Below, piece by piece: positions 54,771-60,077 of a stretch of DNA of 64,000 nt. The stretch is from Rhodococcus tukisamuensis NBRC 100609 (lineage in GTDB: Bacteria > Actinomycetota > Actinomycetes > Mycobacteriales > Mycobacteriaceae), in the NCBI RefSeq assembly GCF_001894985.1, contig NZ_BCXG01000007.1:186001-250000 (forward strand), given 5' to 3'. Position numbers and translations under genes: made by a program. Within the stretch, counting starts at the first letter, position 1; every line of letters begins with the position of its first letter. Under the pieces are notes generated by a model. It saw nothing but the letters and a program-made list of their open reading frames with translations. It was not told the DNA's origin and made no database searches.

Positions 54771-54856
54771 GCGCGAGTGGCGGAATGGCAGACGCGCTAG
54801 CTTGAGGTGCTAGTGTCCTACTAATGGACGTGGGGGTTCAAGTCCCCCCTCGCGCA
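54771..54856 (+). tRNA. tRNA-Leu (anticodon GAG)
   Basis: 86 bases forming a full class II cloverleaf. The acceptor GCGCGAG pairs with CTCGCGC, the discriminator is A, and no CCA is encoded. The anticodon stem CTAGC/GCTAG holds loop TTGAGGT, so the anticodon is GAG at 54804-54806 (reads CUC and CUU). A long variable arm and a T arm GGGGGTTCAAGTCCCCC are present. Confidence 0.97.
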
Positions 54857-57770: not shown

Positions 57771-57840
57771 CCTGAGCCACCTGGTGCCTCGTGCTCGAAG
57801 TCCGTTGATGGGTGCCGGGGATCCACGTGGATGCATCGGA

Positions 57841-57898
57841 AGGCGGAGACGTCACGGGTAGCGGTGTTCTACCTGGGACGTCGACAACGCAGCGAGGC
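57841..57898 (+). other. Conserved structured intergenic element, copy A
   Basis: AGGCGGAG (57841-57848), 33 bases, then CGACAACGCAGCGAGGC (57882-57898). The 33 bases form a hairpin GGTAG-CGGTGTT-CTACC, extended by GACGTC arms. Copy B at 59960 has the same flanks, spacing and loop with different but still paired stem bases. It lies 60 bases upstream of the gene at 57959. Could be an RNA leader or a DNA site; this is the only feature I see in the 188-base gap besides the -10 box. Confidence 0.6.
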
Positions 57899-57945
57899 GC
57901 CGCGTGGGCCCCGGCAACCGCGAGAAGACTTCGGGCACGGGGCAC

Positions 57946-57951
57946 TAGGCT
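57946..57951 (+). promoter_or_regulatory. Leaderless -10 box
   Basis: TAGGCT ends 7 bases before the ATG at 57959 and no Shine-Dalgarno is present. If used, element copy A lies upstream of the transcription start. Confidence 0.45.
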
Positions 57952-57958
57952 CGGCGGC

Positions 57959-59197
57959 ATGACCCGCACCCGCGACCTCGACGTCGTCGTCTACGGCGCC
58001 TCCGGCTTTGTCGGCAGGCTCACCGCCGAGTACCTGGCCCGCCACGCGCCCGACGGCACCCGGATCGGCCTCGCCGGCCGCTCCCGGGAGCGGCTCGAGC
58101 GGGTGCGGGAGTCGCTGCCGGGGGCGTCGGCGTGGCCGATCCTGATCGCCGACGCGGACGACCCGGACTCGCTGACCGCACTGGCGAAGTCGACGCACGT
58201 CGTGGTCACCACCGTCGGCCCGTACGCGAAGTACGGGATCGACCTGGTGCGGGCCTGCGCCGAGGAGGGCACCGACTACACCGACCTGTCCGGCGAGGTG
58301 CTCTTCGGCCGCGAGAGCATCGACCGGTTCCACAACGTGGCCGTGGCGTCCGGGGCCCGCATCGTGCACTCCTGCGGCGTCGACTCCATCCCCTCGGACC
58401 TCGGCGTGCACGTGCTGCACCAGCAGGTGAGCGCCGACGGCGAGGGCGACCTCACCGACACCACGCTGGTCGTCAGCGCGTTCCGCGGCGGGGTCAGTGG
58501 GGGCACCGTCGACTCGATGCGCAACCTGGTCGACACCGTGAAGGTGGACCGCCACGCCCGCCGGATCGCGGCCGGCCCGTACTCGCTGAGCCCCGACCTG
58601 GCCGCCGAACCCGACCTGGGCCGGCAGTCCGACTTCGAGATGGTGAAGGGCTCGGACATCGCGCCCGGCCTCGGCGGCCGCACCGCGCCGTTCGTGATGG
58701 GCTCGACGAACACCCGGGTGGTGCGCCGCAGCAACTCGCTGCGCAAGTGGGCGTACGGCCGCACGTTCCGGTACCGGGAGGTGATGAGCGTGGGTCAGTC
58801 GGCGCTCTCACCCGTCTTCGCCGCCGGGGTGTCGGCGGGGCTCGGCGCGCTGATGGCCGGTCTCGCCTTCGGCCCCACCCGCTACCTCCTGGACCGCGTG
58901 CTGCCCGCACCCGGCGAGGGCCCGAGCGAGAAGACCCGCAGGACTGGCCATTTCACGATGGACCTCTACACCACCACCAGCACCGGCGCCCGGTACGCGG
59001 CCCGGGTGCGCGCGCAGGGCGACCCCGGGTACGCCGCGACCGCGGTGATGCTCGGCGAGTCGGCGCTGGCGCTGGCGTTCGACGGCGAGAGGCTGCCCGC
59101 CGCCGCCGGCGTGCTGACCCCGGCCACCGCCATCGGCGACGCCCTCGTCGACCGGCTCCGGGCCGCCGGATTCGAGATCAGCGTCCGGAGGACGTAG
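57959..59197 (+). CDS. Saccharopine-dehydrogenase-like / trans-acting enoyl reductase family protein
   Basis: 412-residue NAD(P)-binding protein of the mycobacterial Rv2449c/Rv2953 type. The Rossmann motif is DVVVYGASGFVGRLTAEYLARH at the N-terminus. The family-specific TVGPYAKYG, YTDLSGEVLF and HSCGVDSIPSDLGV segments follow. The C-terminal YTTTSTGARYAARVRAQGDPGY and EISVRRT are typical. Some members (Rv2953) reduce enoyl intermediates in polyketide lipids; others are uncharacterised, so the substrate is open. Its last 20 bases overlap the convergent YhhN gene. Confidence 0.92.
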   Translation: MTRTRDLDVVVYGASGFVGRLTAEYLARHAPDGTRIGLAGRSRERLERVRESLPGASAWPILIADADDPDSLTALAKSTHVVVTTVGPYAKYGIDLVRACAEEGTDYTDLSGEVLFGRESIDRFHNVAVASGARIVHSCGVDSIPSDLGVHVLHQQVSADGEGDLTDTTLVVSAFRGGVSGGTVDSMRNLVDTVKVDRHARRIAAGPYSLSPDLAAEPDLGRQSDFEMVKGSDIAPGLGGRTAPFVMGSTNTRVVRRSNSLRKWAYGRTFRYREVMSVGQSALSPVFAAGVSAGLGALMAGLAFGPTRYLLDRVLPAPGEGPSEKTRRTGHFTMDLYTTTSTGARYAARVRAQGDPGYAATAVMLGESALALAFDGERLPAAAGVLTPATAIGDALVDRLRAAGFEISVRRT

Positions 59198-59891
59198 TCG
59201 CGGTGAGGGGGCCGGCTGCCGTCGACCGGGCGGCGGCCAGCACCCCGAAAACCAGCAGCGCCTGCCCGGCGACGTAGGTGAGCATCACCGCGAACCCCTC
59301 GGCCGGCGGGTGGTACCAGTCCGCGAACGCGCCGAGCGCAATCATGGAGTCGGACAGCAGGAACAGCGCCCCGCCGACGGCCGCGACCCGGCCCAGCGCC
59401 GTGCTGAGCGCGGCCATCGCGCCAAGACAGATGCCGTAGACCAGCGCGGGTACGAGCAGCGGCCCCGCACCCGGCGCGCAGGCCGCCACCAGGGCAACGA
59501 TCACCGCGACGTATCCGAAAACCGCCGGTCGGCGCAGCACGCTCGCCGCGCGGTAGGGCCAGAACGCGGCGATGTACGCCAGCTGCGCGAGCAGGAAGAA
59601 CCCGATCATCACGAGAAACGCGGTGTCGCCGTCCGCGAGGTCCGGCGCGGCGTCGCCCAGCCAGGACAGGCCGAGCGCGGCCAGCGTCAGCCGGACCAGC
59701 CGTGGGCGCGGCGCGGCGGTGGCCAGCGCCAGGAACCCGGCGAGCAGCGGCATCAGGAACCACTGGCTCACGTTCGCCACGCCGTCCGCGCCGACGAGCT
59801 GGGCGGCCAGGTGGGTCACCGACACCGCGGCGAACGCGCCCAGTGCGGCTGCGGGCCGGCGTCCGAAAGGTCCTGCGGGGTCGGCAATCAT
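59178..59891 (-). CDS. YhhN family membrane protein (lysoplasmalogenase-like)
   Basis: 237 residues with about eight membrane helices and little loop sequence. The family signature shows in LSWLGDAAPDL and ALFLLSDSMIALGAFADW, whose aspartates match the TMEM86/YhhN active-site positions as I recall them. Eukaryotic homologues hydrolyse lysoplasmalogen; the bacterial role is uncertain. The ATG at 59891 gives MIADPAGPFGRRPAAALGAF; readings further upstream have no support. The 198-base gap to the CoA transferase contains element copy B. Confidence 0.88.
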   Translation of the reverse strand: MIADPAGPFGRRPAAALGAFAAVSVTHLAAQLVGADGVANVSQWFLMPLLAGFLALATAAPRPRLVRLTLAALGLSWLGDAAPDLADGDTAFLVMIGFFLLAQLAYIAAFWPYRAASVLRRPAVFGYVAVIVALVAACAPGAGPLLVPALVYGICLGAMAALSTALGRVAAVGGALFLLSDSMIALGAFADWYHPPAEGFAVMLTYVAGQALLVFGVLAAARSTAAGPLTATTSSGR

Positions 59892-59959
59892 CTGACCAGG
59901 GTAGGGCGTGTCTCTCAACCCCACTCGGATGCACCTGGCGAAGCAATCGCGGTCCGGCA

Positions 59960-60017
59960 AGGCGGAGGAGAAGCCGATACCGGGGTTGTATCGGCGCCGA
60001 CGACAACGCAGCGGGGC
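59960..60017 (+). other. Conserved structured intergenic element, copy B
   Basis: AGGCGGAG (59960-59967), 33 bases, then CGACAACGCAGCGGGGC (60001-60017). The hairpin is GCCGATAC-CGGGGTT-GTATCGGC. Loop position and spacing are identical to copy A, while stem pairs differ with pairing kept. It lies 72 bases upstream of the CoA transferase start, in the divergent gap with YhhN. Confidence 0.6.
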
Positions 60018-60077
60018 AGCGATTGGGCGCCAGGGGCGCCGAAACGGGGGTTGGGAGATACGCCCGGTCTGCGGGTA

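Follow-up and report, generated by a model that had tools for sequence, protein, structure and literature searches.

A short mobile element in Rhodococcus and other bacteria, with a conserved folded core and the ends of two insertion sequence families

What are the two similar sequences that recur within some two kilobases of each other in a 64,000-nucleotide stretch of Rhodococcus tukisamuensis NBRC 100609, and what keeps their shared features in place? We call the whole of this stretch the window. A first-pass annotation had seen two elements with common flanks and a fixed spacing. Indeed, the window contains two instances, and no more, of AGGCGGAG followed by 33 bases and CGACAACGCAGCGRGGC, one at 57841-57898 and one at 59960-60017. 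Both are on the plus strand, and 100 shuffled windows gave no match. Read from the sequence, the loop CGGKGTT lies at offset 21 in each copy, and the stems are GGTAG/CTACC in copy 1 and GATAC/GTATC in copy 2, just as described. The next ATG codons (57959 and 60090) do lie 60 and 72 bases further on. The motif GGATGCAYC, also reported as shared, is present upstream of both copies; measured from its start, the distance to AGGCGGAG is 12 bases in copy 1 but 33 in copy 2, and so it does not occupy the same element position in the two. The annotation recognised no known class, and Rfam agrees: at curated cut-offs there is no match at either copy, with E values up to 10 the sole match overlapping copy 2 scores 16 bits where 45 would be required, and none is found at gathering scores in 13 other loci. 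A known Rfam family was rejected on these grounds. A tRNA gene at 54771-54856 is the only Rfam match of the window at gathering scores.

The structure reaches well past the shared pattern, to about 165 bp per copy (about 57781-57948 and 59901-60067). Each such copy folds as one long hairpin (z = -10.5 for copy 1 and -8.3 for copy 2, against 200 shuffles each), in which the flanks outside the pattern pair as a further helix and then as terminal inverted repeats (TIRs). Copy 1 (57781-57948, plus strand) runs from a decayed target CTGG (57781-57784) to CTAG (57945-57948), as defined by TIR alignment, by an empty site in a congener and by element-only matches elsewhere in congeners. Its left and right TIRs, target bases included, align at 57780-57802 (plus) and 57927-57949 (minus). 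Between them lie, on the plus strand, the 5′ half of the core, GGAAGGCGGAG (57838-57848; consensus GCAAGGCGGAG), a variable hairpin termed P3 (57849-57882), assigned from the fold and covariation, and the 3′ half of the core, GACAACGCAGC (57883-57893). Copy 2 (59901-60067, plus strand) is bounded by TIR alignment and an empty site in the same congener; its target CTAG has decayed to GTAG on the left and is lost on the right. The left TIR (59904-59922, plus) has the IS5-type end GGGCGTGTCTC, and the right TIR aligns at 60047-60065 (minus). Its core halves are GCAAGGCGGAG (59957-59967) and GACAACGCAGC (60002-60012), separated by P3 (59968-60001, likewise from fold and covariation), all on the plus strand. 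The CDS after copy 1, whose product has a saccharopine dehydrogenase NADP-binding domain, begins about 11 bases past the end of the element (57948-57959), so that copy 1 supplies most of its upstream region.

By this organization both window copies are MITEs of about 165 bp, that is, short non-autonomous transposable elements without a transposase gene of their own. A search with the core pattern found a third exact copy in the same genome and 29 copies in 10 of 61 genomes, the own genome included. In a simple scan 26 of these 29 had inverted repeats spanning 158-191 bp, mostly ending at or near CTAG; the same scan did not find long TIRs in the three copies of one genome (G017). A first covariance model, built from 28 copies, matched six copies in the own genome. 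It gave matches in 39 genomes of the 301 searched in the family, in 65 of 298 in the order and in 32 of 396 in the phylum; of these 32, at least five (G843, G557, G864, G677 and G612) are chance matches by eye. The three genome sets overlap and each counts the own genome, and the copies per genome are lower bounds since few candidates were scored. Most copies have TIRs: a TIR score of 10 or more was reached by 189 of 262 elements but by only 19 when right arms were swapped as a control, the 262 being drawn from 274 distinct matches after 12 with short flanks were dropped, and the fuzzy pattern admitting some coding matches.

CTAG stands on both sides of many copies, as seen by eye, consistent with target duplication; it is decayed in both window copies. 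In the congener (G005) the orthologous region aligns on either side of both copies with the elements absent, and the empty sites read CTAG at the first and CTAA at the second. Mobility of the element is thus well supported, by the TIRs, the CTAG targets, the empty sites, the many near-identical copies per genome and the transposase partners with matching ends described below. The alternatives offered by the annotation, a structured RNA family or a mobile palindromic element, both find support in this way, the conserved structure being shown by further copies that covary. In some cases, again by eye, the CTAG insertion falls on a TAG stop codon. Such an insertion would be less costly for the host, as is reported for TnRErm46 (PMC6794481). 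Single blastn attempts with copy 1 against plasmids and copy 2 against phages gave no match. A scan of viral contigs gave five exact matches, of which, by eye, four resemble coding sequence and one (L316) a real element.

Which transposases could move an element that encodes none? Its TIRs match resident insertion sequences (ISs) of two families, IS5 in one relative and IS630 in another as well as in a Blautia bin. The partner in genome G299 encodes a transposase of the IS630 family (NCBIfam NF033545 above cut-off, Pfam DDE_3), and its left end CTAGTGGCCCGTGTTTGAAATTC resembles that of the local MITE, CTAGTGTCCCGTGTTGGAAATTC. In G253 the partner is a 959-bp IS5 element (NF033580 above cut-off) with ends of the other MITE type, GGGCGTGTCTCCCAAT; G218 and G275 have IS5 ends of this type at a spacing of 959-960 bp, a comparison of ends only. 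In the own genome an IS5-type end can be seen, by eye, ahead of an IS5-like reading frame; both are on the contig of the window. In the Blautia bin there is an IS630-type element (DDE_3) with ends CTAGTGTACTGTCAAG, and the local MITE starts CTAGTGTACTGT. Thus, as far as alignment of ends can tell, the same core travels with the ends of two transposase families, and from these matching ends we infer that IS5 and IS630 transposases would move the element in trans. A model search found the core in none of the ISs examined. Conversely, derivatives of about 48 to 90 bp have the same ends and lack the core (L295, L296 (G128), L297, L298 (G000), L323 (Anaerobium)), and the core model gave no match when run on all five. 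Such derivatives have also inserted, and movement therefore does not depend on the core; these core-deleted forms from the same set of genomes suggest that an element may need no more than its ends.

How general is the core? The centre of the element consists of GCAAGGCGGAG, the variable hairpin and CGACAACGCMGC, set inside a variable helix, and it recurs nearly unchanged in several phyla. With one genome per species, the core pattern gave at least 119 stretches, namely 91 in Actinomycetota, 19 in Bacillota, eight in Pseudomonadota and one in a Myxococcales bin, the phylum of the listed stretches being assigned by record title. Isolates are found among the matches listed, for example Anaerobium acetethylicum and two Thiomonas, and contamination of bins is therefore not the whole story. 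A second covariance model, R2, was run on 398 genomes of the phylum to which Anaerobium belongs and matched 19 of them, among them Anaerobium itself; the match in G1001 is due to chance by eye. In many of 20 loci that we viewed the flanking helices are AT-rich and the core letters are still GC-rich, and in some of the 20 the closing G-C pair is replaced by A-U or U-A, with a change on both sides.

Sixteen of the 22 core positions are invariant in 84 representatives. These were drawn from 224 matches passing a pattern that requires near-exact core halves, and the invariance is thus partly a product of selection by the pattern. Real variants of the core exist, as covariance-model searches reveal. 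Cores such as GCAAGGCCGCAGGGAG ... CGACTGAGAACGCMGC occur at eight loci in genomes from other classes of the own genome's phylum.

The fold of the centre would comprise a variable helix (P2), a loop AAG/M, invariant GCG/CGC pairs and then an inner loop, which could hold tandem G.A pairs and a CAA bulge before P3 begins. P2 pairs in register only, the first pair being formed in 89% of the 84 representatives against 42% expected, and P3 likewise. In the 75 of the 84 with a P3 length of 32-36, 85.8% of the paired cells (25 pairs) can form, compared with 62.0% in shuffled alignments and 29.6-48.1% when the strands are slid. The covariation score is 0.592, against 0.190 ± 0.010 shuffled and 0.10-0.14 slid, for a structure hand-drawn from the same sequences and with statistics that take no account of the tree. 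Covariation thus goes beyond both shuffles and slides, as looked for in a structured RNA. Changes on both sides are seen in 19 of 25 pairs, a number reached also by 402 of 500 shuffles. The three GCG/CGC pairs never vary, and so carry no proof by themselves. By our own reading, both adenines of the proposed tandem G.A pairs are cytosines at two loci (L050 and L059), giving G-C pairs. Tandem G.A pairs next to a bulge recall the kink-turn, whose rules fix the order of the elements on the bulged strand; that order is the wrong way round here on our reading, and a standard kink-turn was rejected. The covariance-model search proposed in the first-pass annotation has thus yielded many further copies with strong covariation, in related genomes and beyond.

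The kind of mismatch tolerated within the helices points to a fold of one strand. At positions flanked by Watson-Crick pairs, the ratio of G.T to A.C on the core strand is 52:2 for P2, 24:4 for P3 and 59:15 for the TIRs, where a single position that also differs between the two IS ends accounts for some of the excess. Arm composition alone would give a ratio of about 2 to 3 in P2, and 500 shuffles gave a maximum of 24, compared with 26 observed. Selection on double-stranded DNA alone should not favour G.T over A.C. It is therefore probable that selection acts on the core strand in a single-stranded form, whether RNA or single-stranded DNA, between which the G.T excess alone does not separate. 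The copies within single genomes show a similar constraint: 37 of 434 columns vary in the outer arms and 11 of 667 in P2 and the core (p = 7.5e-8), about 5-fold less, in 24 copies from seven genomes, 2 to 8 fetched from each as a part of what those genomes hold. Covariation, the one-strand G.T excess and this low variation together argue that the fold is kept by selection. We consider it likely, with good though not full confidence, that this is an IS-mobilized MITE whose conserved core fold is maintained by selection and works single-stranded, while its ends differ with the transposase.

Two readings would dispense with such a function. Gene conversion between copies might keep the core uniform in place of selection, and cores can indeed be identical within a genome, as in all eight copies of G215; yet it can explain neither the same core across phyla within different flanking helices nor the covariation, and we regard it as quite improbable. 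Or this may be an ordinary MITE whose core is merely inherited from an ancestral IS. PMC2229807 describes MITEs of comparable length, with TA targets and long hairpins, and the core-less forms are consistent with this. Against it, helices covary around an invariant core in several phyla, different TIRs surround that same core, the core and P2 are the quieter part of each element within genomes, and the partner ISs examined have no core to hand on; a functionless core is accordingly unlikely. The least credible reading, which we hold to be very improbable, is that of a cis-regulatory RNA, a riboswitch or leader for the downstream lipid/CoA genes, to which the annotation had hinted from the position of both copies 60 and 72 bases before a start codon. 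In 189 loci (those of 274 matches with a GC content of 58% or more and long flanks, using a crude gene caller), 57 lie between tandem genes in sense, 46 in tandem antisense, 31 convergent and 51 divergent, with four undetermined. Consistent sense orientation before related genes is thus not seen among the 189. Copies are many per genome, with neighbours in all orientations, and at the orthologous sites in G005, which are empty, the neighbouring genes are still present. The hinted tie does not hold, and a cis-regulatory RNA was rejected as the general role on the mixed orientation and the empty sites, though a single copy could be co-opted as a gene regulator.

Preferring the IS-mobilized MITE with a working core, we can ask what that core would be. 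The best explanation is that it works as RNA or single-stranded DNA; the fold would either be bound by a factor common to all these bacteria or be active by itself, and the benefit would go to the element and not to the neighbouring gene. The mixed gene orientation, an uneven replication bias and the lack of a promoter favour such a role for the element itself, by either form. An uncorrected promoter scan had favoured the left arm by 17:3 (20 matches, two of which look spurious), and this was lost on correction for composition. In the corrected scan, run without two loci at an edge (L246, L264) and two with no match (L339, L341), the count was 18 of 30 Bacillota copies (p = 0.15), and no internal promoter on the core strand stands out. 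With respect to replication, all 130 listed matches in 12 genomes divide into 46 whose core strand follows the direction of the fork and 84 in which it is opposed to it, and the division is 46:90 (p = 0.0002) with six matches from four further genomes (G218, G253, G295, G517); the listed matches are a part of the whole, and those of two genomes with dnaA on another contig (G501, G534) were set aside. Two related genomes contribute 2:23 and the remainder 44:67 (p = 0.04), with several genomes showing no bias.

A core that folds as single-stranded DNA, in a replication or transposition intermediate recognized by a replication or recombination protein, would accord with the mixed gene orientation, the lack of an internal promoter and the tendency of the core strand to run against the fork. 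This tendency favours DNA, though half of it comes from two genomes and it is very strong only there. On the other side, G.T pairs, which RNA tolerates more easily than DNA, are 155 of the 771 standard pairs scored in P2 (20%). We therefore give the DNA reading a substantial but less than even chance. The single strand would most likely be RNA, an opinion that we hold with slightly better than even confidence; action of the element as RNA is possible from what the sequences reveal. More tentatively, and with a probability well short of even, the core may constitute a new functional class of nucleic acid, for instance an RNA that processes itself or binds a factor. It would have reached several phyla on unrelated ISs by taking over their ends.

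As a MITE the element is of a known kind. RUP, Correia/NEMIS and ERIC are about 100-200 bp in length, with a long hairpin, TA-containing ends and no transposase of their own, and the ends of RUP match IS630-Spn1 (PMC2229807); our element resembles them in all the first four respects. In that account they are given for particular organisms, whereas here one core is present in several phyla with ends from either of two transposase families. In a 2024 survey of 50 bacterial genomes (PMC11109978), MRSC-65-2 and other mobile or repeat candidates are described, which share with the element a multi-copy nature, a covarying long stem, occurrence in many phyla and an undecided DNA or RNA form. MRSC-65-2 differs by its conserved repeat UYCCGG (PMC11109978), which is found in five of our 84 representatives and twice in none, and on the reverse strand in three and none, within the core and 24 bases on each side. 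The element may be an unnamed entry among the 250 repeat candidates of that survey. TnRErm46 of Rhodococcus equi likewise inserts at CTAG, where a TAG stop codon can be provided by the target (PMC6794481); it is a gene-carrying transposon, and its printed inverted repeat is unlike the ends found here. We found no description of a cross-phylum core with exchanged ends in open-licence papers.

MITEs are usually viewed as remnants bound to one transposase and one lineage. Here the core is nearly letter-perfect across phyla, AT-rich genomes included, with IS5 ends in one case and IS630 ends in others, and this raises the question of which universal partner or activity the fold serves. A parallel exists in eukaryotes: CORE-SINEs are non-autonomous elements whose central domain stays conserved while the partner that mobilizes them changes. 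The likeness lies in a conserved centre and an exchanged mover; CORE-SINEs are retroelements, and no homology is claimed. If the core is indeed a new class of nucleic acid, the element would be a bacterial counterpart of such short elements with a conserved core. Integron attC sites have the core sites GTTRRRY and RYYYAAC; by eye CGACAAC in our core does not fit RYYYAAC, and an attC site was rejected. A natural alignment and a covariance model are now available for testing the role of the fold. A multi-copy structured element with no Rfam match here could also mislead searches for riboswitches and small RNAs in actinobacteria and Clostridia.

Individual copies show some further variety. Tandem copies 107-165 bp apart occur at G013:C1:3523041 and 3523204, at G501:C1:1804913 and 1805078, and at a third locus (L084). 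At G215:C1:2856600-2860150 (L126) IS110-type and IS3-like genes lie within the central hairpin of a MITE copy and split it. Another copy, from the own genome (L299, G000:C2:134600-135000), has a longer central hairpin owing to an additional GC-rich stretch.
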